A DNA stretch of 64,000 bases, from NCBI GenBank assembly GCA_021772635.1, contig JAJFLP010000113.1:83309-147308 (forward strand), given 5' to 3'. Origin of the DNA: Verrucomicrobiota bacterium. Lineage in GTDB: Bacteria > Verrucomicrobiota > Lentisphaeria > JABSQK01 > JAJFLO01. Below, in pieces: positions 2,704-45,427 of this stretch; position 1 is the first letter of the stretch, and the number at the start of each line of letters is the position of its first letter. The position numbers were made by a program, and so were the translations under genes. The notes below the pieces were generated by a model. That model made no database searches. It had not been told where the DNA came from and was given only the letters and a program-made list of their open reading frames with translations.

Positions 2704-4011
2704 ATGTGCAAACCCTTAAAATATATTCATCTTTTGATGATCTTTGCCTTTTCGTGCCCAATTGCTACTATTTTCGCTGCGGGTGAGTTGAGTGCGCGAG
2801 GTAAAAACGGTTTGTCAGTCTGGCCGCAGCCAGACTCGCTCGCTCCTGTTACGCCGACCGGGGTTCCTCGCGCCGATGACTTTACTCAACCCCAGAAAAC
2901 GATCGACGTTCCGGTTGCCAGCACGGTTGCGGAGGAGGTCTGTCTAGCCTCTGCCAGGGGGCGCCGATTCGGAACATTTGACCAGAACAAAGAGGCAAGT
3001 TTCCAAGATATACGAGATTTTCTAAAGCTTCCGGAGGCGAAGCTAGATCTCGGGATGGGAAATATCCTGCTGGGGAACCTCTACCAACGGAATGTCGAAG
3101 TTACGAAGCACGTAGAAGTCCTTGACGAAATGGCAGCGAAAATTCGTAGGAATATCGGAAGAACGAAGGACCCTCAGAAAATTATCGATAAAATCAATTC
3201 GTACTTATTTGAAGAGCTGACGCTAGCGGCTGAAGATGAGCCGTATCCGGAAGATTTTTTGATTCACCGGTTATTGGAAACAAAGATCGGACGGTGCATG
3301 TCTTTGGTCGCCTTGTATATCAGCCTTGCCGATCGCATCGATTTTCCGGTGGTTAGCGTTTGTGTTCCAGAACATATTTTCGTGCGCTGGATTCCCGACA
3401 ATAAGAGAAAATTTTTGTTCTCGAAAAAAAAGTCTCATATCAATATTGAAACCACGTTGATGGGTACCTCGCTCCAGGATCAGCGATACGAAGAAATGGC
3501 CGGCAAGGTTCCGCCGGATAATAACTTCTACCTTCGCCCGCTTTCCAAGAAAGAAACATTCGCTACATATCTCAGTGCTTTAGGCAGCGCATTGCTAAAT
3601 GATAATAGGGTCGATGAAGCTATAGAAGCGTGTAAATTATCATTGTCTGTGAACTCCGGCGATGCAGAGGCATGGAATAATCTTGGGATGGCCTATCGGA
3701 AAAATAAACTCGAAGATTTAGCCGAAACGGCTTATAAGCGGGCTTTGGACAACTATCCCGAATTCGCAGAGGCATGGCAGAATTTGGGTTCAATATGCGA
3801 TGATAACAAGAAAAGGATCGAGTACTATAAGAAGGCGGTTTCCATTAAACCACAATTATCCGAGGTTTGGGGAAATTTAGTTCTTGCCTATTGCGAAGAT
3901 GAGAAGTTTGAACTCGCGTTGGCCTGCGTAAATCAATGTAAGAAATTGGGTCACAGATTACCGCCTAACCTCGTTAGCAAAATCGAGCGGCGTCTTTATT
4001 CAGATCGATAA
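2704..4011 (+). CDS. Exported transglutaminase-like (SirB1-type) protein with C-terminal TPR repeats
   Basis: Signal peptide from MCKPLKYIHLLMIFAFSCPIATIFAA; GRCMSLVALYISLADRIDFPVVSVCVPEHIFVRW resembles the SirB1/transglutaminase-like Cys/His core; TPR motifs AEAWNNLGMAYRKN and AEAWQNLGSI. Confidence 0.75.
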   Translation: MCKPLKYIHLLMIFAFSCPIATIFAAGELSARGKNGLSVWPQPDSLAPVTPTGVPRADDFTQPQKTIDVPVASTVAEEVCLASARGRRFGTFDQNKEASFQDIRDFLKLPEAKLDLGMGNILLGNLYQRNVEVTKHVEVLDEMAAKIRRNIGRTKDPQKIIDKINSYLFEELTLAAEDEPYPEDFLIHRLLETKIGRCMSLVALYISLADRIDFPVVSVCVPEHIFVRWIPDNKRKFLFSKKKSHINIETTLMGTSLQDQRYEEMAGKVPPDNNFYLRPLSKKETFATYLSALGSALLNDNRVDEAIEACKLSLSVNSGDAEAWNNLGMAYRKNKLEDLAETAYKRALDNYPEFAEAWQNLGSICDDNKKRIEYYKKAVSIKPQLSEVWGNLVLAYCEDEKFELALACVNQCKKLGHRLPPNLVSKIERRLYSDR

Positions 4012-4842: not shown

Positions 4843-4935
4843 TATACTGCAAGCAGTACAATTTTTGGACGACTTTGAACTAACCACGAAAGAGATATCG
4901 AACGATATTTCAAAAACTCGAAGGCGTTCGGTATA
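4843..4935 (+). repeat. 93-bp TATAC-family element between oadG and oadA
   Basis: TATACTGCAAGCAGTACAATTTTTGGACGACTT...TCGAACGATATTTCAAAAACTCGAAGGCGTTCGGTATA. Confidence 0.85.
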
Positions 4936-4961
4936 ATTGTAGATAATACGGATCAGGCGGA

Positions 4962-6782
4962 TTGATGAAAAAGAAAATTTTATTCCAAGACACTTCTTTT
5001 CGAGACGGTTTCCAGTCGGTATTCGGAGCCCGGGTGCTTACGGACGATTTTATCGCCGCGGTCGAGGCCGCCGCCGCAGCAGGAATAGATCACTTCGAAG
5101 CAGGTGGAGGCGCACGATTTCAAAGTCTATTCATGTATTGTGGAGAGTCCGCTTTTGATATGATGGATAGATTCAGGGCGGCAGCGGGGCCAAACGCGAA
5201 CCTTCAGACGCTTGCGCGCGGTATCAACGTTGTCGCTCTTCAGGCACAGCCGCGAGATATGATTGATCTCCATGCGAAGATGTTCGCGAAGCACGGAATT
5301 ACCCATATCCGGAATTTCGATGCATTGAACGATGTTCGAAATCTGGAATATTCGGCGGAGTGTATATCGAACGCCGGCTTGCACCATCAGGTAGTTGTCA
5401 CCCTCATGGACTTACCCCCAGGATGTTCAGGGGCCCATGACGCGGAGTTCTACGTGGGGACGCTGAAGAAAATCCTTGATTCAGGGTTACCGTTTGATTC
5501 CGTTTGTTTCAAAGATGCGTCCGGGACAGCGAATCCAAGCAAGGTCTATGATACAATCAGTGGCGCGCGTAAATTACTCGGGCCTGATGTAATTATTTGG
5601 TCACACACCCACGAAACCGCTTCCCTGGGTGTCTCTCAGTATTTAGCCGCAATTAATGCGGGATGCGACGGGATTTGTGTGGCTCGGGCGCCTGTGTCCG
5701 GTGGAACGTCGCAGCCGGACGTGATCTCTATGTGGCATGCTTTGAAAGGGACCGAGTTCACACTGGACATTGATGTAAACAAGATTCTTGAGGCGAACGC
5801 CGTATTTAAAGAGTGTTTGAAGGATTATTTTTTTCCGCCGGAAGCGCTCAGTGTGTCATCGGAAGTCGTTTTGTCGCCTATGCCCGGCGGTGCCTTGACC
5901 GCGAATACGATGATGATGCGCGACACGGGGACATTGCATTTATATCCCAAGGTCATAGCAGAGATGTCGGATTGCATCAAACGCGGCGGATTCGGGACTT
6001 CCGTAACTCCCGTCTCGCAGTTTTACTTTCAGCAGGCCTATGCCAATGTTACGCAAGGTCCGTGGAAGAAGATAACTGATGGGTACGGCAAGATGGTTCT
6101 AGGTTACTTCGGTCGCACCCCAGTGCCGCCGGACCCGGAAATCATAAAAATCGCGGAAGAGCAATTAGGACTACCACCGTTAACCGGAAATCCCTTGGAT
6201 GTGCTCGAACCAGGGGTGCCAATTGCAGAAGAAACGTTAAAAAAAGAGAATCTCGATATAACCGACGAGAATATTTTCATTGCCGGTGCACTGGCTACAC
6301 CGGGCGGTAACAAGGGTATCGATTTTCTAAAAGGTAAGATTCCCGTTGGCGTACGGAAGGTGTCCAATGCGGAACAAAAAGCAACGTCTCCACCGAGGTC
6401 GACGCCAGAAGCTAGCGTAAAATCAGGGGGATCCGGAACAGCGCACTACATGGTAGCAGTTGAGGGAAAAACCTACAACGTAAGCGTCTCCGAAGGAACC
6501 GGAGAAATAAATTCTGTTTCGCCGGTAACCGCAACAGAAGCGTCGGAGCCGACAGAATCCGCCGGTGTAGTAGTAACTGCGAATCTCCCGGGGAACGTAT
6601 ATAAAATAGTGGTTAATACCGGGGATACCGTTGAGGAGAACGATGTCCTTATCGTGCTGGAAGCGATGAAGATGGAAACAAATATTGTAGCCCCGGCGAA
6701 GGGGAAAGTTCTAGCGATAAATGTGAGCCAGGGCGACGTTGTCACCGCCGGCCAGAAGCTTGTCTCCCTTGAGCCAAGTTGA
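4962..6782 (+). CDS. oadA: Oxaloacetate decarboxylase/pyruvate carboxylase alpha subunit with biotinyl domain
   Basis: [13 protein letters not shown], carboxylase domain, C-terminal [14 protein letters not shown] biotinylation motif. Confidence 0.92.
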
Positions 6783-6799
6783 CTAGGGGACTGGTAAAA

Positions 6800-8122
6800 A
6801 TGATACGTGTCGTTTGGCAACGCTTAGTTCTCATCAGTTTAATTTGCGGGTCTGTATCGATAATTCCTTCTATGTCCGCGGCCGAATCAGACCGAGTTGC
6901 GGAAGTTACGGTGGAAAATCCACAGCTTCGTCCGGTCGAGCAGCAGCGGCTGCCGCCGTTGTCCGAGTTAATCAAGAATGTCCTTAAAACAACGGGAATA
7001 TCGGCACTAATATCTCCGCAAGACGGGTCTTGGCGAGGCGGGTTGGGCCGGTTCTTAATGATCTGCGTCGGGTTTCTGATTTTGTACCTTGGGATCGCAA
7101 AGGAGTTCGAACCACTACTACTCGTCCCGATCGGTTTCGGCTGTATTCTATGCAATATCCCGTTCGCCGGAATCAGCGAAGACGGGGGGATTCTGTACTA
7201 CATATACAACGTCGGCATCACCACCGGAATTTTTCCATTGATCATCTTTATGGGTGTTGGCGCTCTAACAGATTTCGGACCGATGATAGCCAATCCGAAG
7301 ACTGTTATTCTCGGCGCAGCCGCTCAGTTCGGGATTTTCGCAACACTCATTGGGGCGTTGGTACTGACGGAAACGATTCCCGGAATTAATTTCTCGCTTC
7401 AGGATGCCGCGTCAATCGGTATAATCGGAGGAGCAGACGGCCCTACAGCGATCTTTCTAGCGTCGCAATTGTCCCCACGCCTTCTCGGATCGATAGCAGT
7501 TGCTGCTTACTCTTACATGGCCCTCGTTCCGATTATACAACCTCCTATAATGAAGCTTCTTACGACTCGTAAAGAACGAAAAATAAGGATGGAACAATTG
7601 CGGCATGTAGGCCGTGTGGAGAAGATAGTATTCCCGCTGTCGGCATTAACATTATGCGTGCTTCTGCTTCCGTCTGCAACACCGCTGATCGGTTGTTTCA
7701 TGTTCGGAAATCTTGTCCGAGAATGCGGCGTCGTTGAGAGGCTCTCGAATACACTTCAGGGGCCCGTTATTAATATCACCACGATATTTCTCGGACTTGG
7801 TGTCGGGTCGAAACTTTCCGCAACAGAGTTTCTAACGACCGAGACGATCGGCATTTTATTTCTTGGAATCATCGCATTTAGTCTCGGTACCGCAACCGGC
7901 GTATTGATGGCGAAGATAATGAATTTGTTCTCCACAGTCAAGATCAATCCGCTCATTGGTTCCGCCGGCGTATCTGCGGTTCCCATGGCAGCGCGCGTCT
8001 CTCAGACTGTCGGTAGCGAAGAAGACCCGCAGAATTACCTGTTGATGCACGCGATGGGGCCGAATGTTGCCGGGGTTCTTGGCTCTGCGGTTGCCGCTGG
8101 AGTGCTCCTTGCAGTGTTGTGA
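6800..8122 (+). CDS. oadB: Sodium ion-translocating decarboxylase beta subunit
   Basis: Multi-TM protein with [28 protein letters not shown] and [18 protein letters not shown]; follows oadA. ATG at 6800 preferred over the TTG in the track. Confidence 0.92.
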
Positions 8123-32495: not shown

Positions 32496-33346
32496 AATGC
32501 AGCTTTCAATCTCTTCAAATACATTTTCTTCGCGCTGCTTACCGTCGTGATCATGCGCAGTTCAACCTCAGGATTACAAGCTTCAGGCAGCTCACCTACC
32601 GCTTTGCCGCGGAGGAATAGATTGTAGAATACACCACCAAACATCTCCCAGCTCTCCCGACGCGACAGGTCAGGCTCCTTCCATTTTGTAACGGACCAGT
32701 ATGAAGCCGTTGGATCGTCAATTTCAGACACCATGAATTTTCTCGGGAGCGCATATTCGCTGCGCCCGATACTGGAAGCCCAGGCTGTAAAATCGTTAGC
32801 GCAGAAGAAGTTGATTCCGCGCAGTGGTTGCTCGGGATTACTCGTCGAATAACGGGGTTCTGTTTCGCGGAATGTTAACGAATGGCTACCGCTGCTTATC
32901 GATTTTCTAATCGTTTCTGCGCTCACACGTTCGGCATTGAGGTAACCGATGAACATTTGTTCCGTAACCGCGTCGCTAAGATAATAGCGCTTCGCGTTGC
33001 CACGTTGAAGGGTAAAGCGTAACTTGAATCCGTTTATAACTTCCGCGGGAGGTTCGAGTTGTCGAAAAGCATTACTTAGCTGTTCCCTGAGTTCCTTGAC
33101 TTCGTTTCTGGATATCACCTCTCCGATTTGTTTGTAACTCGATTCGGCGCGGATAAATAGTTTATACTGCTCAATCGGCTCAGTTTTCTTCAACAAATCC
33201 TTTAAGATATTTCTTACTAGAAAAAGAGAGTCGCTCCAATCAACCTCGTCCACGCTCTCGTCAGTGGCGCCCAGTTCCAGGACCGGAATGAGGGTGAGTA
33301 GTATGATCAAATTCAGAAGAAAAAGAGAAGTTCGGGAAATCAACAT
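32492..33346 (-). CDS. Hypothetical secreted protein
   Basis: Signal-peptide-like N-terminus; coupled to the downstream ORF. Confidence 0.65.
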   Translation of the reverse strand: MLISRTSLFLLNLIILLTLIPVLELGATDESVDEVDWSDSLFLVRNILKDLLKKTEPIEQYKLFIRAESSYKQIGEVISRNEVKELREQLSNAFRQLEPPAEVINGFKLRFTLQRGNAKRYYLSDAVTEQMFIGYLNAERVSAETIRKSISSGSHSLTFRETEPRYSTSNPEQPLRGINFFCANDFTAWASSIGRSEYALPRKFMVSEIDDPTASYWSVTKWKEPDLSRRESWEMFGGVFYNLFLRGKAVGELPEACNPEVELRMITTVSSAKKMYLKRLKAAL

Positions 33347-33608
33347 GGTTTATAGGGAAATATATGTTTGAAAGTATCAGAGTCAGGCTAGAATATAGAC
33401 AAGTGGGTATCGTTTGCAAGTATGTGTATTCCCGCGCGGAGATATAAGGAGAATACAGATCCTCTTAGCCACTGAGCGGTGTTAGTCCCGCATGCGGGAG
33501 TACGTACCTAACGGGTACGTACACAAAATCACTGCCTGGCTCAGCGACGAAATTTATGCATAATGTAAGCTGGTTGCTTAGAAACGGCGGATTTCCCGTG
33601 CTTGCAGC

Positions 33609-33791
33609 CTAGCCTGATCCATGCATGAATTTCGTCACGAGAGCTTGCAGTGCGTTTGAGATCAATAAGTTACGAAGGTTTCAAGGCTGAAGGAATAGCG
33701 AGCTACTTCAAAGTCTTGGGTTCTTTGTAAGTCATTTAGGTCATGTGCAATGCGTGCTCGCAGTAGAAAGTTCATGCATAGATTAGGCTAG
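33609..33791. mobile_element. ~183-bp MITE-like element, inverted copy of 10141-10322
   Basis: AGCCTGATCCATGCAT...GAGATCAATAAGTTACGAAGGTTTCAAGGCTGAAGGAATAGCGAG...ATGCATAGATTAGGCTAG. Confidence 0.8.
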
Positions 33792-33797
33792 TGTCCC

Positions 33798-34056
33798 GTG
33801 TCTTGAATTCCTTTACATTTGACGAGATGAATTTTTGCGCTTCAAGTGCGTCACTGAGAATAAGGCGATGCCGTAGTATCGTCGTTTTTCACTGACGTGT
33901 CTTGAGCGCCAAAAGGCACTCGCCCAAAGGGTTACGTCTATTTCAGTACAGGGCGGCGTTAGTGAGTTTGGTACGTACCTACGGGTACTTACACAAAATC
34001 ACTGCCTACCCCTGCACTAAAATAGACGTAATCAAATGTAAGGGAATTTAAGACAC
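33798..34056. repeat. 259-bp nested inverted-repeat (cloverleaf-like) element
   Basis: 25-bp ends GTGTCTTGAATTCCTTTACATTTGA / TCAAATGTAAGGGAATTTAAGACAC enclosing two internal hairpin arms. Confidence 0.7.
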
Positions 34057-34109
34057 AGGCCACTAGTTCCATAAGGCTATAACGACCGCGGCAATCTTTA
34101 CTCGCCAAG

Positions 34110-34202
34110 TATACTGCAAGCAGTACAATTTTTGGATAACTCGCACCTAACCACGCGAGAGAATTCGAACGATATTTCGAAAACCTGATGATTTTCGGTA
34201 TA
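34110..34202 (+). repeat. 93-bp TATAC...GTATA hairpin element
   Basis: TATACTGCAAGCAGTACAATTTTTGGA...TCGAACGATATTTCGAAAAC...TTCGGTATA. Confidence 0.8.
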
Positions 34203-34249
34203 CAGTAAAATCTGGCCGCCGTGATTACCTCAATTATGTCGTCGTAGTA

Positions 34250-34452
34250 AGACCCTGTTCAAAAAGGGTTCTACCCGATATTTATTAGTCAAATTCACTG
34301 ACGAATTTCTGGATTTTCCGATGACTTTGCACTATTCGGTATGGATTACTTGCGGTTGTCCCTGAGTAGGATAGACATTCCTGTCTGTCCAATCGATGCG
34401 GTCTGCCTAGATAGAAAAGAATGTCTATCCTACTACCTTTCGAACAGGGTCT
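34250..34452. repeat. ~203-bp element with AGACCCTGTTC/GAACAGGGTCT ends and an internal GTAGGATAGACATTC/GAATGTCTATCCTAC stem
   Basis: Both nested inverted repeats read directly. Confidence 0.6.
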
Positions 34453-34643
34453 AGTACGTCTGTCACTGATTTATTTATACCGAACGTCTGGTCGAACAGT
34501 CGTCGCCCAGGTGGCTTATTCCGGTTAAAAAACTCGAAGACGTTCGGCATATGATACGGTGCCCTATAAACACAAATAGTATGTGTCCCCAATCTTTTGA
34601 CCCCAATCTTTCCGAATTTTATACTTTTTCGTAAATTTCGTAA

Positions 34644-34672
34644 TTGACATTCGTTTACGTACATTTGATATT
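34644..34672 (+). promoter_or_regulatory. Candidate sigma70-type promoter upstream of the ATP-grasp cluster
   Basis: TTGACA - 17 nt - GATATT. Confidence 0.3.
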
Positions 34673-34907
34673 CACGTTCGTCTTCGTATTTATAAAAAAG
34701 ACTTTTTACGTAACCGCGTTAAGACGCACGAAACAGATCCTGAAATGCAAGAATTTGTAGGGCGACAACGCCGGATCTTGTATGGATGGATAATGGCCGC
34801 ACTATAAAAGGTCGGCACGCCACGGTATGGTGTGCTGTATTGGGTTTGTCATCGTCCGAATCTATTTAGTCCACGTTCAATAGTGCGTCCGAAATTCACT
34901 GGAGATA

Positions 34908-34946
34908 ACCGCACTATCGATTAATGTTCTATCGACAGTGCGGTTT
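34908..34946 (+). terminator. Terminator/attenuator-like hairpin in the cluster leader
   Basis: ACCGCACTATCGA ... TCGACAGTGCGGTTTT. Confidence 0.5.
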
Positions 34947-34966
34947 TGAAACGGTACCCCAGCAGA

Positions 34967-35004
34967 GCCGCATTGTTGAGAGACGATGCGGCTTTTATAT
35001 TTTT
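34967..35004 (+). terminator. Terminator/attenuator-like hairpin with U-rich tail, 38 nt upstream of the 31-aa ORF
   Basis: GCCGCATTGT TGAGAG ACGATGCGGC TTTTATATTTTT. Confidence 0.6.
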
Positions 35005-35041
35005 AAAAGTTGGGACATAACACTTTATTACGGAGTTATTT

Positions 35042-35137
35042 ATGAAAACGAAATCACCGTATTTCAAAAAGACAATTGAGCACCTGAATTTCGCCCAGAA
35101 AACGCTTGAAATTATTCTTCCATACGGAGGCCGCTAG
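35042..35137 (+). CDS. 31-aa small ORF, candidate peptide substrate or leader peptide of the ATP-grasp operon
   Basis: ATG preceded by ACGGAGTTATTT; MKTKSPYFKKTIEHLNFAQKTLEIILPYGGR*; ends 5 bp before the first ATP-grasp start. Below the 60-aa ORF-track cutoff. Confidence 0.45.
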   Translation: MKTKSPYFKKTIEHLNFAQKTLEIILPYGGR

Positions 35138-35142
35138 CTATT

Positions 35143-36444
35143 ATGAAAAATTCGTATTGTGATCCTATCAATAACTCTGCCCCAAAAAAAATATTATTTA
35201 TACATAGCGGTTCCTCGAAAAAATATTTAGCATTCGAAACTGCCTTTCGCATCGGCGTCGAGCCATATCTCCTCCATCCAGGCCCTGGCTGGGGGGATGA
35301 TTATGCCTGCGAAACATTCTACACCCGCGACCTCCCTCTCTCCGAAACGCTACAAATTGCCGAAGAATCCCATCAGAAAATAGGCTTCAATGGTGTGGCT
35401 ACATTCTGGGAGGAAGACGTGCCAACATGTGCACTGATCGCAGAGCGCCTCGAATTGCCCGGTAACACTCCACGTGCGGCGATTAATGCCCGAAGCAAAT
35501 ACGCCATGCGACGGGCACTTCAACAGGCAGATGTTCCCGTGCCCCGATTTCACCTGATTACCAGCGAACGCTCTTTGTTGCAGACATGCCGAAAACTGAC
35601 CTTCCCCGTCGTACTTAAACCCGAATGGGGCGCAGACAGCGAATGGGTTACGCTTATAAGAACCGAGGACGACGTTTCTCGCGTATTTAGGCGGGTTAAA
35701 GACTTGGCGCGAGTTCAAAATAGTATCTACCCATATCCTGAGAATCGTTTTTTGATCGAAAAATACATGCGTGGTCCGGAGGTTAGTGTCGAAGGTGTTG
35801 TATCCAACGGCCATGTAACGATTTATGCGATCATTGACAAAGCCAAGATGGATGATGAGTCGTTTATTGAACGTGGTGAGACGACTCCGTCACAGTTGCC
35901 TCCTTCCGTCCAGGAAGATGTTTCGGACATGGTACGGCGGGGCGTTCACGCCCTTGGACTAACTAATTCAGGTGTTCATGCGGAAATAAAAATAACGCCT
36001 TCGGGTCCGCGCATCGTCGAGATTGGCGCTCGGATGGGCGGGGACTGCATACAGCCGCTTGTAAAACGGGTGTACGGCATCGATTTGGTTGAGGAGAATA
36101 TCAAGGTCGCATTCGGCATGCCGCCGAGCGCGCCGCGTGTGGCTGCTGGTTTCGGGCTGTCCGGTACGTTGGTGCCGAATCAACCAGGCCGATTACAATT
36201 GATGCCGATCGGGTTTTCAAAGATACCAAAAAACGTCATCGAAATCGTGGTGACAAAGCAAAATGGAGATCATGTGTTGACGCCGCCGCTTGGATACGAC
36301 AACCTCGCATGGATTAGTGTTTGGGGTAGGTCATATCGAAGCGCGAAAAAGAACCTTTCCGAGTACATGGCGCGTGTAGCCGAGGCATGTATCATTCATC
36401 CGCAAAATATGCCGCATACGTCCGACATGATGCTCACGGATTAA
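35143..36444 (+). CDS. ATP-grasp ligase A1 (BL00235/carbamoyl-phosphate-synthase-L-like)
   Basis: NARSKYAMRRALQQADVPVPRF; VVLKPEWGADSEWV; FLIEKYMRGPEVSVEGVV; IVEIGARMGGD. Confidence 0.88.
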   Translation: MKNSYCDPINNSAPKKILFIHSGSSKKYLAFETAFRIGVEPYLLHPGPGWGDDYACETFYTRDLPLSETLQIAEESHQKIGFNGVATFWEEDVPTCALIAERLELPGNTPRAAINARSKYAMRRALQQADVPVPRFHLITSERSLLQTCRKLTFPVVLKPEWGADSEWVTLIRTEDDVSRVFRRVKDLARVQNSIYPYPENRFLIEKYMRGPEVSVEGVVSNGHVTIYAIIDKAKMDDESFIERGETTPSQLPPSVQEDVSDMVRRGVHALGLTNSGVHAEIKITPSGPRIVEIGARMGGDCIQPLVKRVYGIDLVEENIKVAFGMPPSAPRVAAGFGLSGTLVPNQPGRLQLMPIGFSKIPKNVIEIVVTKQNGDHVLTPPLGYDNLAWISVWGRSYRSAKKNLSEYMARVAEACIIHPQNMPHTSDMMLTD

Positions 36445-36460: not shown

Positions 36461-37789
36461 ATGAAACATATTCTAATTGTTCACACTGCCGTCGATCCAG
36501 CCCCGTATACGCTTTCTCTATCTGCCGGGTATCGATTCGCCTTGCTTAAAAAGTGCCCAACAAAACGTGACTATGACTGTTTTGATCGTGTCCTCGATGT
36601 GTGCTACGAAGACGACATTGGAGAAGCGCTCGCACAGGTTCGGTCACTGCATGAACGGGACCCCCTAAACGGGGTTCTTAGTTTTTCCGAGAGTGGCGTA
36701 TTAATGGCTTCGTTTATCGCGCGCGACTTGCAGCTCCCCGGCAGTGCGCCGCCTGCGGTCCTCCGCGCCCGGAACAAATATCTGATGCGTCGAGCCATTC
36801 AAACTGCCGGTCTACCATCTCCGCGTTTTCATCTTGTTCGTTCGGCACAGCAAATTCAGAAGGTCATTCGTCGGCATGGGAATCCGATGGTCCTGAAACC
36901 CATTAGCGGGTCTTCCAGCTATGGAGTAATTCGGCTTACACCGAAAGATTCATTGAGTGAGATCAACGCTCATCTAACGGAAGTCAGACGTTACATACAA
37001 ACCTATCGCCAGCAGAATACTCAATATCCCTTCGAATTCTGGCTGCCGGGCTCGGGCTACGGGATAAATATTTCGGACGTTATGGATCCGGAAATTGAAT
37101 TTCTCCTGGAGGATTTCATTGATGGCGTCCAGGTGAGTGTCGATGGAATCGTGTCCAGAGACTCGGTTTCCTGTTTCGGAGTGATAGAAGTTGAGCGGGT
37201 GAAGCACGACGACTATTTCATCGAGTACGAGGAGTGGATGCCGACTCATCTCGGAGCGGACCGGGAAATGGAGATTCAGGACATTGTCATGAAAACGATC
37301 CGCGCGATCGGTCTAAACAACAGCTGTTTTCACTGTGAATTGAAGCTAAACGAGAGCGGAATTTTCCCTATAGAAATCGCGGCTCGACGAGGTGCGGATA
37401 ATGTCACTGATTTCTTGAAACGCGTGACGGGGGTGAATATTTACGAGGAAGCCATGCGTATCGCCGCAGGGGAGTATAGGGTCTATGATTCAGTGTTATA
37501 TAAAGGCTGCATGAAGATGCGCTACTTCTTACCCGAAACGCCAGGCACACTAATTCGCATCAACGGCGCCAAGACCGTGCGGCAGGACTCACGGGTTAGT
37601 GAATTACACCTTGAATACGCCCCTGGCGACCGAGTTCTGACACCCCCGGACAGCTACGAATTCCTAGGGTACCTGAGCGTATTCGACCGTACACCAGACG
37701 CTGCTGCTGCTGCCCTGGAATCGTTGTATGCCCAAATAAGCTTTGATATTGACTCGACCACGAAAAGCGAATTGGTGACCGCATCGTGA
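36461..37789 (+). CDS. ATP-grasp ligase A2, paralogue of A1
   Basis: RARNKYLMRRAIQTAGLPSPRF; MVLKPISGSSSYGVIRL; FLLEDFIDGVQVSVDGIV; PIEIAARRGAD. Confidence 0.88.
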   Translation: MKHILIVHTAVDPAPYTLSLSAGYRFALLKKCPTKRDYDCFDRVLDVCYEDDIGEALAQVRSLHERDPLNGVLSFSESGVLMASFIARDLQLPGSAPPAVLRARNKYLMRRAIQTAGLPSPRFHLVRSAQQIQKVIRRHGNPMVLKPISGSSSYGVIRLTPKDSLSEINAHLTEVRRYIQTYRQQNTQYPFEFWLPGSGYGINISDVMDPEIEFLLEDFIDGVQVSVDGIVSRDSVSCFGVIEVERVKHDDYFIEYEEWMPTHLGADREMEIQDIVMKTIRAIGLNNSCFHCELKLNESGIFPIEIAARRGADNVTDFLKRVTGVNIYEEAMRIAAGEYRVYDSVLYKGCMKMRYFLPETPGTLIRINGAKTVRQDSRVSELHLEYAPGDRVLTPPDSYEFLGYLSVFDRTPDAAAAALESLYAQISFDIDSTTKSELVTAS

Positions 37790-39033
37790 AAATTTCACAA
37801 GCAGTCTTATTCGTCCAGCCCAGTAACGACTACGCTCACCGTATTCGACGGCATATCCCGGACGCGGTGATGCTTGCGACTCCAGAGCGGGCGGAGCAAT
37901 TGAAGGATCATCCCCTCGTGATTAGCAGCGATATTAATTGTCTCGAATCCACATATCAAATCGTGTCCAAATTTGCGCAGGATCACCAACTGCAATATGT
38001 CGGCATCACAACTTTTATTTGTGAAAGCATGGAGGTTACGGCAGAATTAGCAATGCTCCTGGAACTGCCGTTTCACGATTCCGCGGCAGTATTTAATACA
38101 CGTAACAAAGCACAGACATGGGCGTTGTGGAACCATGCCGGGGTCTCTACCCCGGAGTCTTGTCAAGTTTCCAACATTGATGATTTGGTGGTGTTCAGTG
38201 ATCGTGTACCGGGTCCGTGGATTCTCAAGCCGTGTAGCGGATCCGGTAGTGAGTGGGTATTACGTGTTGATGATTCGACGAAGTTGCCACTGTCGCATCA
38301 GCGGATGGCAGACAGACTATCCTCCCATAGAAACGTCCCGATACCCTACATAGTTCAGCAATTCATTGAAGGACGCGAGTTCAGCGCGGATCTAATGATA
38401 ACGTCAGATAGTATGTCAGTACTGCGTCTTACTGAAAAATACCTCGTTCCGTGTGCGGGCCACGCGGGGCATGTCGGGGCGTACTTCCCCGGGCAGGTGA
38501 GCGAAGACGATTTTTGTTTAATGAAAGTTGTGTTCGATCGCGGTGTAAAGGCTCTCGGAATAGAGCGGGGGATCGTCATGGTTGATGCTATCTTGACCGA
38601 CACCGGGTTTTACCTGTTGGAAATGGCATTGCGACCGGGAGGCGATTGTCTACCTGACTTTTGTTTGTATTCTTCGGGCTATGACCCGATCAAGGCAGCA
38701 TGCAACCTGATTCTCGGTCATAATCCTGCCGTCTCGTTTAATCAACATGAAATCAACGTTGCCGGATTACATTTGACCTCTGATTGGCAGGGTGTGGTCA
38801 CAGCTATCGATTTCAGGCGTTTGAGTGATGATCCTGCGGTACTTCATGTTTCCCCGTATTGCGGCGTGGGGGATCGAATCGCCTCCATGCGTGAGTGTTA
38901 CGGAAATTCAATCCTGGCTGCGTGTATTGCGCACTATAATAATCCGAAAGAGTTGCCGATTTTAATTGAGCGTTTAACTCAACTAATTGATATCTCGATC
39001 GACAGTTCACCTGAAGATTTACAGTACGATTGA
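37786..39033 (+). CDS. ATP-grasp ligase A3, divergent paralogue; GTG start overlapping A2
   Basis: NTRNKAQTWALWNHAGVSTPESC; WILKPCSGSGSEWVLRV; YIVQQFIEGREFSADLMI; LLEMALRPGGD. Confidence 0.85.
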   Translation: MKISQAVLFVQPSNDYAHRIRRHIPDAVMLATPERAEQLKDHPLVISSDINCLESTYQIVSKFAQDHQLQYVGITTFICESMEVTAELAMLLELPFHDSAAVFNTRNKAQTWALWNHAGVSTPESCQVSNIDDLVVFSDRVPGPWILKPCSGSGSEWVLRVDDSTKLPLSHQRMADRLSSHRNVPIPYIVQQFIEGREFSADLMITSDSMSVLRLTEKYLVPCAGHAGHVGAYFPGQVSEDDFCLMKVVFDRGVKALGIERGIVMVDAILTDTGFYLLEMALRPGGDCLPDFCLYSSGYDPIKAACNLILGHNPAVSFNQHEINVAGLHLTSDWQGVVTAIDFRRLSDDPAVLHVSPYCGVGDRIASMRECYGNSILAACIAHYNNPKELPILIERLTQLIDISIDSSPEDLQYD

Positions 39034-39074: not shown

Positions 39075-40499
39075 GTGATCAGAATGATAGAAACACACTC
39101 AAAGGAAGAGTTACTCGGTCGCATTGGTGCCTTGCTCGAGCAGGACTCATGCGACCTTCATACGGGCGAACTACATTCATTGATCAGAGACGTTTTGGAT
39201 AATCAGGCTACCTATTTGCGTGCGGCCGAAAAATTTGGGACTCCACAATATCTGTTCGACGAAGCCCGGTTGTTTCAGCAAATTTCGCGTTTCCAGAAAG
39301 CGTTTAATAATTCCGAATATCCAGTGCATACGCACTATGCGTTTAAGGCGAATCCTTCACTCTGTGTTGTTCGTGCTGTTCATAAAGCGGGGATAAACGC
39401 TGATGTATCAAGCGGTTTGGAACTTGACCTGGCGTTACGGTGCGGTTTTAACCGCATCGTATTTAGCGGGCCGGCTAAAACGGACGTTGAGTTGCGCCTG
39501 GCGTTACAGCATTCAGATCGGGTTACGGTACACCTGGACAGCTTTCGAGAACTTGATCGTCTTGAAATTCTTGCCGCTGAGATGGACCGCACAATCGACG
39601 TCGGAATTCGCTTGAATACCAAGGGACACGGGCTATGGACTAAATTCGGCATCCCGCTCGATACACTTCCTGACCTGGTGCAGCGAGCGCGGACAGCGTC
39701 ACATCTCATGCTTCGCGGTATCCAATTTCATCTAAGCTGGAACCGAAATTCAGAGGGATATGTGCGAACCCTCTGTGACCTGGGGAAGGTCCTTCGCACG
39801 GTCGCGCCCCCTAATGGTTGGCGTTTCATCGATGTCGGTGGCGGCTACTACCCTGAAGACGACGAGGCTGCGTACCCCTGGCTTACGGGTCGAGGTCTTC
39901 TATTGTCGCAAGCCGGAGTCACTTCGGCGGGAAGTCCGCCTGAAGACTGGGATCTACGTTATCTCCTTCATGCGGTGCAACCGATAGAAACCATGGCACA
40001 GGATATTTTCGATGCCTTCGATAAACATATTCGAAGCTGGTGTGACGCTGAGTTATGGTTGGAACCCGGAAGATATCTGGTCAACCCCGCGGTCCATCTA
40101 CTTCTTGGAGTCGTTGATGTGAAACATTCAGAAATTGCGATTACCGACGGTGGTACAAATCTATTGGGCTGGGAACGCTTAGAAGCGGAGCATTGCCCGT
40201 TAATTAATTTGTCGCGCCCGGCAGAAACCCAACGCCGTACCAGTGTATATGGAAGTTTATGTACGCCCCACGACTTGTGGGGATATACCTGTTACGCGTC
40301 TGATATTCGTGAGGGGGATGTGTTAGTGGTTCCGGCACAGGGTGCGTATGTGCAAACGCTTGCTCAGAGATTCATTAAACCGATCTGTCAGACAATCGGG
40401 TTGAATTCGCAGGGTGATTTACGACGGATCAACGAGGAAGAATCAGTCGACGACCGATACCCTGAACTGGGGCGGACGTCGGCACCTGGGACGTTATGA
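39075..40499 (+). CDS. Fold-type III PLP-dependent decarboxylase (diaminopimelate/ornithine decarboxylase-like)
   Basis: THYAFKANP PLP-lysine motif; DVSSGLELDLAL; RGIQFHLSW; DVGGGYYPE; EPGRYLV; CYASDIREGDVLVVPAQGAYV. Confidence 0.88.
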   Translation: MIRMIETHSKEELLGRIGALLEQDSCDLHTGELHSLIRDVLDNQATYLRAAEKFGTPQYLFDEARLFQQISRFQKAFNNSEYPVHTHYAFKANPSLCVVRAVHKAGINADVSSGLELDLALRCGFNRIVFSGPAKTDVELRLALQHSDRVTVHLDSFRELDRLEILAAEMDRTIDVGIRLNTKGHGLWTKFGIPLDTLPDLVQRARTASHLMLRGIQFHLSWNRNSEGYVRTLCDLGKVLRTVAPPNGWRFIDVGGGYYPEDDEAAYPWLTGRGLLLSQAGVTSAGSPPEDWDLRYLLHAVQPIETMAQDIFDAFDKHIRSWCDAELWLEPGRYLVNPAVHLLLGVVDVKHSEIAITDGGTNLLGWERLEAEHCPLINLSRPAETQRRTSVYGSLCTPHDLWGYTCYASDIREGDVLVVPAQGAYVQTLAQRFIKPICQTIGLNSQGDLRRINEEESVDDRYPELGRTSAPGTL

Positions 40500-40503
40500 G
40501 AGT

Positions 40504-40632
40504 TTATACTGTATGCAGTACAATTTCCGGAAGACTTTTAATTTATCAGCTATAGGCTATCGAACGGTATTTCGAACAGCCGTTCTGCTGGCCAGCAGAA
40601 TGCCGATTAAAAACTCGAAGGCGTTCGGTACA
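40504..40632 (+). repeat. TATAC-family element carrying a ~36-bp nested hairpin insertion
   Basis: Canonical ends plus internal GCCGTTCTGCTGGCCAGCAGAATGCCGATTA. Confidence 0.7.
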
Positions 40633-40920
40633 ACCCAAAAATTAACAGTTTTTCTGTCGAATGGCAGGTCATTGAATATTAAAATGGATTCCATGTCCGA
40701 ACTGATCGGATGAGGACGCATTGTACACCCCCCGTTATATAGTAGGTTGTATTCAGGGCTGTCAAATGTGACTTTGAATTTATCAGCTATAAGATACCGA
40801 ACGGTATTTTTTAACCGGAAGACGTTCGGTATATAATACGGTGCCCTATAAACACAAATAGTAGGTGACCCAATCTTTCTCAGGGACAACTAACGCAGTA
40901 CAGATTTAAGGAATAAAAAA

Positions 40921-41718
40921 ATGAGTCAGAAATCTTATAAAATAACACGAGGTACGGGCCCCATAGTGGTGGCGGCAATTCATGACGGCCATGGGTTGAG
41001 AGACGAAGTTGCAAAAATAATTGCTCTATCCGATTCCGAACGATTAAGAGAAGAAGATCCCTGCACTGGTGAGTGGACGACCGTGGCGGATACACGGATC
41101 ATTGGACTCCGGTCACGATTTGAAGTTGATCTGAACCGGCCGCGGGAGAAAGCCGTCTATCGGATTCCGGCGGACGCTTGGGGGCTTCATGTATGGGAAA
41201 CAGCGCCATCTGATGCAGTCGTGGCCGAATCCCTAGGGCAGTACGACGAATTTTACGAGGAAGTTCGAACGGCTCTCGCCAAGCTGCAAAAAGAAAATAA
41301 GCATGTTGTGGTGTATGATCTCCATACCTATAATCATCGCCGTGACGGTCACGATAAATCACCGGCTGATGCATCGCTCAATCCTGAAGTCAATATAGGA
41401 ACCGGCACAATGAATCGCGATCGTTGGGGACCATTGGTTGATCGCTTCATGAGCGACCTGCACGCGTTCGATTTTCAGGGACGTCAATTAGATGTCCGGG
41501 AAAATGTAAAATTTCAGGGTGGGCAATTCTCCCGTTGGATACATGAACAGTTTCCAGAAACGGTTTGTTCCATAGCCATTGAATTCAAGAAGTTTTTCAT
41601 GGATGAATGGACTGGGGAACCGGATACGGTCCAGGTGAGTGAGATAAAGAAAGCCTTACTTCACACGATTCCAGGAGTGCGGAAGGAAATTGAAAGGTTA
41701 GATAAATCCAATGCCTGA
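40921..41718 (+). CDS. N-formylglutamate amidohydrolase-like protein
   Basis: GTGPIVVAAIHDGHGLRDEV; VDLNRPREKAVY; VVYDLHTYNHRR; CSIAIEFKKFFMDE; 8-bp overlap with the downstream QEGLA gene. Confidence 0.85.
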   Translation: MSQKSYKITRGTGPIVVAAIHDGHGLRDEVAKIIALSDSERLREEDPCTGEWTTVADTRIIGLRSRFEVDLNRPREKAVYRIPADAWGLHVWETAPSDAVVAESLGQYDEFYEEVRTALAKLQKENKHVVVYDLHTYNHRRDGHDKSPADASLNPEVNIGTGTMNRDRWGPLVDRFMSDLHAFDFQGRQLDVRENVKFQGGQFSRWIHEQFPETVCSIAIEFKKFFMDEWTGEPDTVQVSEIKKALLHTIPGVRKEIERLDKSNA

Positions 41719-43615
41719 TAAAATATCCAGCATTACAGAAAGCTTTTCCGCTAAGACGATCAATTCTCTCTGCAAACGTTTGTTAGCCAATGACGGACTG
41801 ACTGAATCCCTGCCGGGAAACGGGAGTATTCACAATGACCGTCCCCTACCCTTTATCGGCGTTTTTCGTCGCCCCCCGAACAACGGAGATCCGGGAACAG
41901 AAAAACTAATCTCGGGTGAGGCGTCCTATTTAATCGCTGACTCTCAATTCGACGATTATACACCAACCCTTGTTCGAGCCCTTGCGAAGGAGTTGACCCG
42001 GAAATTTAATGCCGTCCTTATTGTCGAGATTTGGGCGGCCGATCCTCTTCAGGGTGAGAACAATCACTCCGACGGTGGTTGTCGGCCTGGATTTACTATT
42101 CTGACGTCCCGCAACCGGCCACCAAGCAAAACCATTGAAGCGTTAGTTAAATCATTGGAAGCAGTAAAGATAAATAAGCAAAAAGCTGAGGTTAAAGTCA
42201 CTTACGGCGAGAACCGTTGTTCGTGTAGAACGACGCCGCTTATCCAGCACAGGGAAGCGCGAAAACTTAATTGTTTTGTTATTGGTATTGAAATCGCCCC
42301 GATCTATCGAGATTCCAAAACCGGCGAGGTATTTCCTGTTTTGCTGCGACTATTTCAACGTCGATTCGCTCATGCCTTACGCCGAGGATTTTTTGAATTC
42401 TCCAGATCACACACGACATTTCGACCGGGAAATTATCTCGCGCTCGGTAAGCGAACGCTTGGAAAGGAGGTGCTGACTATCGATCGAAAACTGGCCGAAA
42501 TCAGTAATTCCTTTGATTTCCTATTACAGGCGACTCCGGTGAATATGAAAGATGCCTGGGACTCTTTTGTACGTTTAAGATATAAACGAAAACCCGTCTT
42601 CTATTATCGCCCGCTACCGATTGATCCGGCATTCGTCAAGTTAAAGCTCTATAAGATAATTCTGGAGCGGGTAGAGGATCCGACCTTAGCACATCTGTTT
42701 CGTTTGAAACGCCGGGAACTGGATCGCCAGTTAACAATGATGGAAGATCTTGAGACCGACAGATTCTTGTTCGGCGGCCTTCAATTATACGGAAAATTGG
42801 ACGATGGATTTATCGATACAGCCAAAAACTTGCTGCTGCGAATTCCGAACGATAAATCCAGTAATTCCGACAAAGGGTCGTTGGATGCCAACGAGTTTGC
42901 GCGAAAGGCTGAGGAGGAGTTCGACTATTACCGCGGGTTATATCCCGGAATGTCCACCCGGATAGAGATTAGAGAGGATATTATCGGGCTGATGGTTTCC
43001 CACGGCAACCTGCTCATCGGACACCAGACCACCATTCCGGCATCGCGAGTCAATGCGCTGCTTGCCCACGAGGTCGGAACCCATGTTTTGACCTGGGTCA
43101 ACGGCAAGGTCCAACCATTTCAACAACTCTACACCGGATTGCCGGGTTACGATGAATTGCAGGAAGGCCTTGCGGTGCTGGCAGAATTTTTAGTGGATGG
43201 GTTAAGTGGTTCGCGACTTCGCCTGTTAGCTGCCCGCGTTGTCGCCGCGAACAGCCTGGTTGACGGTTCTTCATTTGTAGACTCGTTTCAAGAATTGGTT
43301 GAGATTTATCAGTTTGATAAGAAAACAGCCTTTACGGTGACCAGTCGTATTTTTCGTGGCGGCGGATTGATTAAGGACGCTGTATATTTACGTGGTTTAA
43401 TCAAAATACTCGAGTACGTAAAAAACGGCGGAAATATTGAACCGTTGTACATTGGAAAAATCGCGGCAGAGCACGTTTTGATGGTCAACGAACTCCGGCT
43501 CAGAAAGGTTCTCGTTCCAGCCCCGTTACGACCACGTTTTCTCGATGACCCTCTGGTAAAAACACGACTGGACAGGGTGCGCAGTGGAATTAGTGTGCTG
43601 GATTTGGTTTCTTAG
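41711..43615 (+). CDS. DUF1704/QEGLA-motif protein Q1 (predicted zinc metallocarboxypeptidase; 'flavohemoglobin expression-modulating QEGLA motif protein')
   Basis: LLAHEVGTHVLTWVNGKVQPFQQLYTGLPGYDELQEGLAVLAEFL. Confidence 0.9.
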   Translation: MPDKISSITESFSAKTINSLCKRLLANDGLTESLPGNGSIHNDRPLPFIGVFRRPPNNGDPGTEKLISGEASYLIADSQFDDYTPTLVRALAKELTRKFNAVLIVEIWAADPLQGENNHSDGGCRPGFTILTSRNRPPSKTIEALVKSLEAVKINKQKAEVKVTYGENRCSCRTTPLIQHREARKLNCFVIGIEIAPIYRDSKTGEVFPVLLRLFQRRFAHALRRGFFEFSRSHTTFRPGNYLALGKRTLGKEVLTIDRKLAEISNSFDFLLQATPVNMKDAWDSFVRLRYKRKPVFYYRPLPIDPAFVKLKLYKIILERVEDPTLAHLFRLKRRELDRQLTMMEDLETDRFLFGGLQLYGKLDDGFIDTAKNLLLRIPNDKSSNSDKGSLDANEFARKAEEEFDYYRGLYPGMSTRIEIREDIIGLMVSHGNLLIGHQTTIPASRVNALLAHEVGTHVLTWVNGKVQPFQQLYTGLPGYDELQEGLAVLAEFLVDGLSGSRLRLLAARVVAANSLVDGSSFVDSFQELVEIYQFDKKTAFTVTSRIFRGGGLIKDAVYLRGLIKILEYVKNGGNIEPLYIGKIAAEHVLMVNELRLRKVLVPAPLRPRFLDDPLVKTRLDRVRSGISVLDLVS

Positions 43616-43710
43616 TGTTCAAGATATGCTTTTGGGCGGATCCGGTTGCGTTTCAATTTCGTACGCCTACTCGTAATCTTAATCTTAATCGCATTTCACC
43701 TTTGGTTTAA

Positions 43711-43970
43711 ATACCACACTAAAGTGTGAACTCCAACGGCCTGTCCAGCAGAACTCCAGATTACACGGGCGAAGCGCATGTTGGAGTTCACAACTTCAGT
43801 TGTGCTGGCTATCCGCTAACGGAACACTGCTAAAGCAGTGAACTCCAACGACCTGTCCAGCAGAACTCCAGATTACACGGGCGAAGCGCATGTTGGAGTT
43901 CACGCTTCAGCGTGGTTTTTAAGTTTCCGGCAAGAAATACCACACTAAAGTGTGAACTCCAACGGCCCGA
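43711..43970. repeat. GTGAACTCCAAC...GTTGGAGTTCAC repeats, including a 66-bp direct repeat (43726-43791 and 43838-43903)
   Basis: GTGAACTCCAACGRCCTGTCCAGCAGAACTCCAGATTACACGGGCGAAGCGCATGTTGGAGTTCAC twice. Confidence 0.85.
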
Positions 43971-44093
43971 ACACATATAAATCCTTAACTTGGTGACATT
44001 AGCATCAACAGAGGGCAAACAGCCTCGTCGGACTCTCCTCAGGAGTTTCACCGCTCTCCTCTTGAAACATTGAGTAATTTGACTGAGATTTTC

Positions 44094-44169
44094 ACCATGA
44101 AGGACATGAAGGGCATGAAGTAAAGACTTTTTATATTTTCCCCTTCATGCTCTTCATGTCCTTCATGGT
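44094..44169. repeat. 76-bp near-palindrome ACCATGAAGGACATGAAG...CTTCATGTCCTTCATGGT
   Basis: Inverted copy at 56786-56861 with conserved flanks. Confidence 0.85.
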
Positions 44170-44380
44170 TGTAAAGCATTATCCGGTTGGCGGGTTGCTC
44201 CCTTGCACCGCTAATTCAAGGGGCTCCGGGATGATCGAAGCATTGTATTTATCAATTAATCTGCTACCTTGAGTTATCGCCGTTTGCGTATTAACTTCCG
44301 CAGTTCTTCCGCAGTTCTTCCGCAGTTGGGACACTTTCAGCAATGACATATCAACCATAATCACTCAAAGGAACCGTAAA

Positions 44381-45427
44381 ATGAAAATAGGATTCGTCGT
44401 AAATGATATCAAAACTGAGGAAAGCGGCTATAGCACCACCCGCCTAGGAATGACCGGGATTAATGCGGGGCATGAGGTGTGGGTGATGGGCGTCGGAGAT
44501 ATGGCGTATGATGTTGATGAGAAAATTCGCGCCAATGCGCGCACTGTTCCCAAGAGTAGTTACAAATTGACGGAAACTTATTTATCGGACTTGCAGGGAC
44601 CGAAGGCAAGAGCTGAGCGCATTACGGTCGACGATCTTGATATTCTTATGCTGCGTAATGATCCATCCCAGGACACAGGCTCTCGGTCATGGGCTCAGAC
44701 ATCCGGTATTAATTTCGGGCGTATCGCCATGCGTCATGGTGTCATTGTACTGAATGATCCGAACGGTCTGGCGAAAGCGATGAATAAAACCTATTTCCAA
44801 CTTTTCCCACAGGAAGTCAGGCCCAAAACTGTAATTACGCGTAGTCGGGATGAAATAAAGGCGTTCGTTAAAGAGCAAGGCGGCAATGCGGTGCTTAAAC
44901 CGTTGCAAGGATCCGGCGGTGCCGGCGTTTTCCTGGTACGGCCTGAGGATAAGGCTAATCTAAATCAAATGATCGATTCCCTAACTCGCGATGGATATGT
45001 TATCGCGCAGGAGTATTTGCCGGCAGCCGCCGAGGGGGATACGCGACTTTTTCTGATGAACGGCCGGCCACTGCGTTATAAGGGCAAATACGCGGCCTTT
45101 AGAAGAGTGCGATCCGGTGATGATATGCGGAGCAATATCCATGCGGGCGGTAAGTTAAGAGAAGCGGAGATTGGCGAGGAGGCATTACGGCTGGCGAAGA
45201 TTGTACGGCCGAAATTGGTGCAGGATGGGATGTTTCTGGTAGGCCTTGATATTGTCGGTGATAAATTGATGGAAATCAACGTATTCAGTCCAGGGGGTCT
45301 CGGCAGCGCTCAAAAGTTCGAGAAGGTAAATTTCAATAATGCGGTTATTGAGGCTCTTGAGCATAAGGTGGATTGTATGAGTTACTATCACCGAAAATTT
45401 GATAACGTCGATATGGCGACGTTATAA
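44381..45427 (+). CDS. GshB-like ATP-grasp ligase G1
   Basis: VLKPLQGSGGAGVFLVRPED; YVIAQEYLPAAAEGDTRLFLMNGRPLRYKGKYAAFRRV; FLVGLDIVGDKLMEINVFSPGGLGSA. Confidence 0.9.
   Translation: MKIGFVVNDIKTEESGYSTTRLGMTGINAGHEVWVMGVGDMAYDVDEKIRANARTVPKSSYKLTETYLSDLQGPKARAERITVDDLDILMLRNDPSQDTGSRSWAQTSGINFGRIAMRHGVIVLNDPNGLAKAMNKTYFQLFPQEVRPKTVITRSRDEIKAFVKEQGGNAVLKPLQGSGGAGVFLVRPEDKANLNQMIDSLTRDGYVIAQEYLPAAAEGDTRLFLMNGRPLRYKGKYAAFRRVRSGDDMRSNIHAGGKLREAEIGEEALRLAKIVRPKLVQDGMFLVGLDIVGDKLMEINVFSPGGLGSAQKFEKVNFNNAVIEALEHKVDCMSYYHRKFDNVDMATL

Follow-up and report, generated by a model that had tools for sequence, protein, structure and literature searches.

An unannotated mini-gene of 24 to 31 codons appears, from comparison of orthologous loci, to head an operon of amino acid ligase-like enzymes in at least two distant bacterial groups, where it has been overlooked. 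Our reference is a 64,000-nucleotide stretch of a Verrucomicrobiota genome (hereafter the window). It contains a 31-codon open reading frame (ORF) directly upstream of the ATP-grasp ligase gene A1, the last codons of which overlap the Shine-Dalgarno (SD) sequence of A1. The arrangement is conserved before A1 orthologs of the Latescibacterota, and its terminal motif is linked to the enzyme cluster. We favour, with moderate confidence, the interpretation that the ORF is a conserved and translated leader mini-cistron coupled to A1. Its translation would probably set A1 output rather than provide the raw material of a peptide product, and the mini-cistron possibly acts through its C-terminus at termination.

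The initial annotation had described a 31-residue ORF before A1, preceded by the SD sequence ACGGAG and stopping 5 nt short of A1, with final codons overlapping the GGAGG of that gene. Coordinates, translation and overlap are all confirmed (Table 1). Positions 35042-35137 translate as MKTKSPYFKKTIEHLNFAQKTLEIILPYGGR, followed by the stop codon. ACGGAG is spaced 6 nt from the ATG, the stop codon TAG occupies 35135-35137, and the ATG of A1 (35143) lies 5 nt further on; the A1 GGAGG falls within the Y-G-G codons. Taken singly, the window sequence does not establish the ORF as a gene. In the 1.8 kb upstream of A1 (33346-35142, both strands), 36 ORFs of at least 20 residues are present, so that a 31-codon ORF alone is no better than chance. 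The peptide has no match in Pfam, NCBIfam or PADLOC and no further match within its own genome. The pattern GGAGG-N4-TAG-N(3-8)-ATG occurs 7 times in that genome versus 4 for the reversed control and is thus no general habit of it. The ORF is lifted above chance because the same arrangement is conserved before A1 orthologs.

Table 1. Features of the leader region and of the enzyme operon in the window.
Feature	Position	Strand	Evidence
Terminator-like hairpin 5' of the small ORF	34964..34995	+	Consensus scan; 2 found vs 0.9 expected in shuffles
Shine-Dalgarno of the small ORF, ACGGAG	35030..35035	+	Sequence; an SD precedes each ortholog too
Small ORF (putative leader mini-cistron), 31 aa	35042..35137	+	Sequence; positional and C-terminal conservation
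Terminal motif TAC GGA GGC CGC TAG (Y-G-G-R-stop), overlapping the A1 SD	35123..35137	+	Alignment; cluster linkage of the Latescibacterota form
Shine-Dalgarno of A1, GGAGG, 12 nt from the A1 ATG	35126..35130	+	Sequence
A1, ATP-grasp ligase, L-amino acid ligase type	35143..36444	+	Pfam ATP-grasp_4 7e-25; PDB BL00235 4.1e-24; fold
A2, ATP-grasp ligase with LAL_C2 domain	36461..37789	+	Profile and sequence matches
A3, ATP-grasp ligase	37786..39033	+	Start overlaps the A2 end by 4 nt
DC, fold-type III PLP decarboxylase (diaminopimelate/ornithine decarboxylase family)	39075..40499	+	Family matches; ortholog in the same 8 Latescibacterota

The enzymes encoded by A1-A3 resemble free-amino-acid ligases in sequence and, for A1, in predicted fold. 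A1 and A2 are closest by sequence to the L-amino acid ligases BL00235 and BacD. The AlphaFold2 model of A1 (seven sequences) has a mean pLDDT of 77 and its best fold match is BL00235 (TM 0.77), with only about 21% identity over the fold. In contrast to BL00235 and BacD, three ligase genes stand here in a row and are accompanied by a PLP decarboxylase, which lies near DapDC and the ornithine/lysine and N-citrylornithine decarboxylases. Small-molecule pathways such as that of fungal E-64 also combine an ATP-grasp ligase with a decarboxylase that supplies the amine (PMC12568646); this is an analogy only. Gene content varies around this core. In the Latescibacterota locus L045, A2 and A3 form a single 932-codon open frame (4889-7687, minus strand), a possible natural fusion. 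An HDAC-like deacylase (PF00850) follows the decarboxylase in L042 (1538-2539), L043 (8811-9812) and L045 (2374-3384), in place of which the window has an N-formylglutamate amidohydrolase-like (FGase-like) gene at 40921. This gene opens a group of FGase-like, QEGLA/MATCAP and GshB-like ATP-grasp genes 3' of the operon (40921-45427).

A scan of the genome collection for A1 returned one ortholog, in a Latescibacterota MAG (L021, 54%). Among 64 Latescibacterota genomes searched, eight carry an A1 ortholog (52-55% identity) and the same eight carry the decarboxylase ortholog; between Latescibacterota sublineages, A1 identity is 65-69%. No A1 ortholog was found in plasmid and viral collections or among 388 genomes sampled from the phylum of the window, where the best matches from other genomes (1e-36 and 7e-32) belong to different ligases with other neighbouring genes. 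The window copy is therefore isolated in that phylum, and its horizontal transfer is plausible. Decarboxylase relatives (36-37%) occur in two genomes of the window's class (G040 and G046; L059 5276-6586 and L060 9569-10879). They adjoin a protein of about 1270 residues, judged by eye to be DUF3857/transglutaminase-like, and no ATP-grasp genes accompany them. Dispersed repeats lie on both sides of the window operon (34531-34589 and 40813-40871, 59 nt, 90%), together with a further flanking pair (34110-34141 and 40505-40536), and the region 34380-34700 has 43 matches across the genome. They possibly belong to a family of short interspersed repeats that borders an acquired island.

A short ORF lies directly 5' of A1 in all eight Latescibacterota orthologs, that is, in every one with upstream DNA available; the L058 locus sits at a contig end (G448:C49), the remainder of A1 being on another contig of that genome. 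All eight mini-cistrons have 24 codons, counting for L021 a GTG start chosen by its SD, an ambiguous choice since a GTG further upstream would give 38 residues. The predicted peptides are MSTLRFFPPHRHGYTLHFLSYGGL (L040), MSALCLFFAHRHGYTLHFLPYGGL (L041), MSALCLFFAHRHGYTRHFLSYGGL (L042), MSTLCFFPAHRHRYTLHFLSYGGL (L043), MFALCLHPAHRHGYTLHFLSYGGL (L058), MVGSRCTRSELRARNLHGLVYGGL (L045), MVSSRCPRSELRAVNLHGLVYGGL (L046) and VVRHDYSPGYHNHHQAYFFTYGGL (L021, GTG start). Together with the window, this makes nine loci, which stand for a small number of independent lineages, about three within the Latescibacterota and that of the window. Each of the nine has its own SD before the mini-cistron start, and the gap from stop to A1 start is 4-6 nt throughout. 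The distance from GGAGG to the ATG of A1 is 11-13 nt, longer than usual for fresh initiation. The C-terminal end reads Y-G-G-L-TAG in 8/8 Latescibacterota and Y-G-G-R-TAG in the window. The N-termini are unrelated between the Latescibacterota sublineages, with little shared beyond the last residues, and the peptide composition differs completely from lineage to lineage.

One way to account for this pattern is that selection acts only on the A1 SD and its surroundings and that the open frame is incidental; the initial annotation had itself cautioned that YGGR might be such a by-product. GGAGG forces Gly-Gly, an ORF of 31 codons is expected by chance, the N-terminus is unconserved and the window ORF has no close relative for comparison. 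Against this stand the separate SD and start at all nine loci and the constant 24-codon length in the Latescibacterota, where the ORF is devoid of indels while the surrounding leader contains many. At every locus GGAGG is preceded by T or C, giving the Tyr codons TAT or TAC and never TAA or TAG. An A in this place would extend SD pairing (UAAGGAGG) yet create the stop TAA. The mini-cistron stop is likewise TAG in 9/9 loci. In the eight Latescibacterota, the 12-nt terminal motif varies only at third codon positions, those of Tyr, the second Gly and Leu; three variable sites placed at random would all fall on third positions with a chance of 4/220. The motif also tracks the cluster: each of the eight cluster-bearing Latescibacterota genomes has a single copy of TAYGGAGGNCTYTAGTT, the other 56 have none, and the reversed sequence used as a control does not occur.

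Variable sites at codon positions 1/2/3 number 3/2/11 over codons 10-24 (chi-square p ~0.01, the split being chosen post hoc), 8/3/4 over codons 2-9 and 11/5/15 over the whole ORF (p ~0.09). These are small-sample hand counts in two close Latescibacterota groups, and the whole-ORF count is only suggestive. The last 10-15 codons of the mini-cistron look coding in this respect, whereas the N-terminal part does not. The suspicion that YGGR merely reflects the SD is weakened by the invariant Tyr, for which both codons are used, the third-position variation in the eight Latescibacterota and the linkage of the motif to the cluster, and we consider a purely incidental frame unlikely. As to whether the SD alone is conserved, the answer is mixed: conservation does extend beyond it, but within the peptide it covers the C-terminal end only.

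Among the roles suggested in the initial annotation, that of a translational leader fits best, given the A1 SD within the last codons, the 4-6 nt gap and the conservation. From this arrangement we infer translation of the mini-cistron, its coupling to A1 and any effect on termination or arrest, along the following lines. A ribosome would initiate at the mini-cistron's own SD in the leader of the A1-A2-A3-decarboxylase mRNA. Having made a peptide of 24-31 residues, it would terminate at the UAG, which leaves 4-6 nt to the A1 start; the codons just read include the A1 SD. The same ribosome would then re-initiate on A1 or free the site for another one, and A1 output would depend on the mini-cistron being translated and terminated. 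How fast termination proceeds may in addition be adjusted by the C-terminal end of the nascent chain, perhaps according to an operon metabolite, because Y-G-G-(L/R)-stop is kept at the codon level while the N-terminus drifts.

Short upstream ORFs which 'deliver' ribosomes are a recognised idea, and stop-start distances of about -4 to +40 nt are reported to couple (review PMC12548453). The gap of +4 to +6 nt falls inside this range. As in such coupled mini-cistrons (PMC12548453), the ORF has its own SD, stops a few nucleotides before the first enzyme gene and carries the next SD inside its end. What sets it apart is that distant lineages have kept both the terminal Y-G-G-(L/R) codons and the TAG, neither of which plain coupling needs; simple coupling by itself leaves the retention of Tyr and Leu unexplained. 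Folding of the nine loci gave no inhibitory structure over the A1 SD stronger than shuffles (z-scores -0.9 to 1.4), which leaves the RNA-unfolding version of coupling without support. A GC-rich leader element, GACGCGGAGGAT...ATCCTCCAGGGATGTGAGAAGGGATG...CGGAGGGACA, is conserved in two Latescibacterota loci (L040, about 6930-6860, minus strand; L043, about 3159-3235, plus strand) and absent from two close ones; it has no Rfam match.

The same data bear on a different role for the peptide, namely as a substrate of A1-A3. Amino acids would be added to the C-terminal Y-G-G-L/R-COOH without tRNA, by analogy with PEARL scaffold pathways, the decarboxylase would act on the carried residue and a deacylase would then release the product. 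The tight linkage to ligases in two distant lineages agrees with this, as does conservation limited to the C-terminal end, which a C-terminal attachment site would require; the operon includes a PLP decarboxylase, and an HDAC-like deacylase lies 3' in the three Latescibacterota loci examined. A carrier does not need the strict overlap with the A1 SD, however, and the C-terminal residue in the window is Arg, not Leu. The ligases have their matches among free-amino-acid ligases, and the cluster genes that were scanned include no peptidase, exporter or RRE protein. The N-terminal region is unconserved despite the 65-69% identity of A1 between sublineages. Since graspetide leaders track their ATP-grasp branch (PMC8939145), a leader-recognised substrate should track its enzyme; these peptides do not, which favours a translational leader over a precursor. 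Five of the nine peptides have neither Asp nor Glu, one of which graspetide chemistry would require, and this argues against a graspetide precursor. The nine peptides contain no conserved position of a graspetide core (Asp/Glu with Ser/Thr/Lys) and no conserved leader motif. The resemblance to graspetides (PMC8939145) lies in a short ORF upstream of ATP-grasp genes, but motif and core are missing and the ligases are of the L-amino acid ligase type. If the peptide did serve as a carrier, elongation of a small ribosomal peptide at its C-terminus would be common to this operon and to PEARL scaffold pathways (PMC11962472), but the latter differ in their ligases: the operon ligases are of the ATP-grasp L-amino acid type, and no PEARL/LanB-like protein was detected in the window operon and nearby genes (Pfam, NCBIfam) or in three Latescibacterota flanks (Pfam). 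The amino-group carrier protein LysW has about 54 residues, binds zinc and ends in an EDWGE-type sequence, whereas the peptides here have 24-31 residues and end in YGG(L/R), that of the window being without a family match. The precursor or scaffold role advanced in the initial annotation is accordingly disfavoured: we hold a precursor or carrier to be possible, though less probable than a leader, and regard the tRNA-free extension scheme as doubtful. A small protein acting in trans, for instance as a regulator or subunit of A1, would also explain the genomic linkage and the C-terminal conservation. Its extreme shortness, the lack of a family match for the window peptide and a composition wholly different between lineages make this proposal quite improbable.

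A new termination-stage arrest peptide, Y-G-G-(L/R)-UAG, which would sense the operon product, is also conceivable and comes close behind the carrier idea in novelty. We know of no arrest motif of this kind. The residues next to the stop are Y-G-G-(L/R)-TAG in all nine peptides and overlap the A1 SD, and conservation confined to the vicinity of the peptidyl-transferase centre, with a constant stop, would also fit a TnaC-like termination effect. In TnaC, of the tna operon, W12, D16 and P24 are conserved, the stop is UGA and the spacer is controlled by Rho (PMC10941005). Both leaders are short (24 residues in TnaC, as in the Latescibacterota), precede a metabolic operon and rely, or would rely, on a C-terminal residue by the stop. 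The mini-cistron differs in its 4-6 nt gap, its UAG stop and the absence of conserved Trp, Asp and Pro.

Other types of leader control were considered and rejected. Terminator attenuation between the ORF and A1 is impossible, as the gap measures 5 nt and the terminator-like hairpins are 5' of the ORF. Several Latescibacterota peptides are rich in residues of His, Tyr or Phe codons, as an amino-acid-rich attenuator would be, but this does not hold for L045, L046 or the window. Reading through the TAG would enter A1 in frame at seven Latescibacterota loci but out of frame at L021 and in the window, so it is not general. The leader has no match in Rfam.

Distant lineages of uncultured bacteria thus appear to share an unannotated mini-gene that travels with an uncharacterised operon of ligases and a decarboxylase; as an element it is short and can be tested directly. 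Should the nascent chain act at termination, its end would constitute a novel arrest motif, whereas a carrier peptide would make the operon a tRNA-free pathway of peptide extension.
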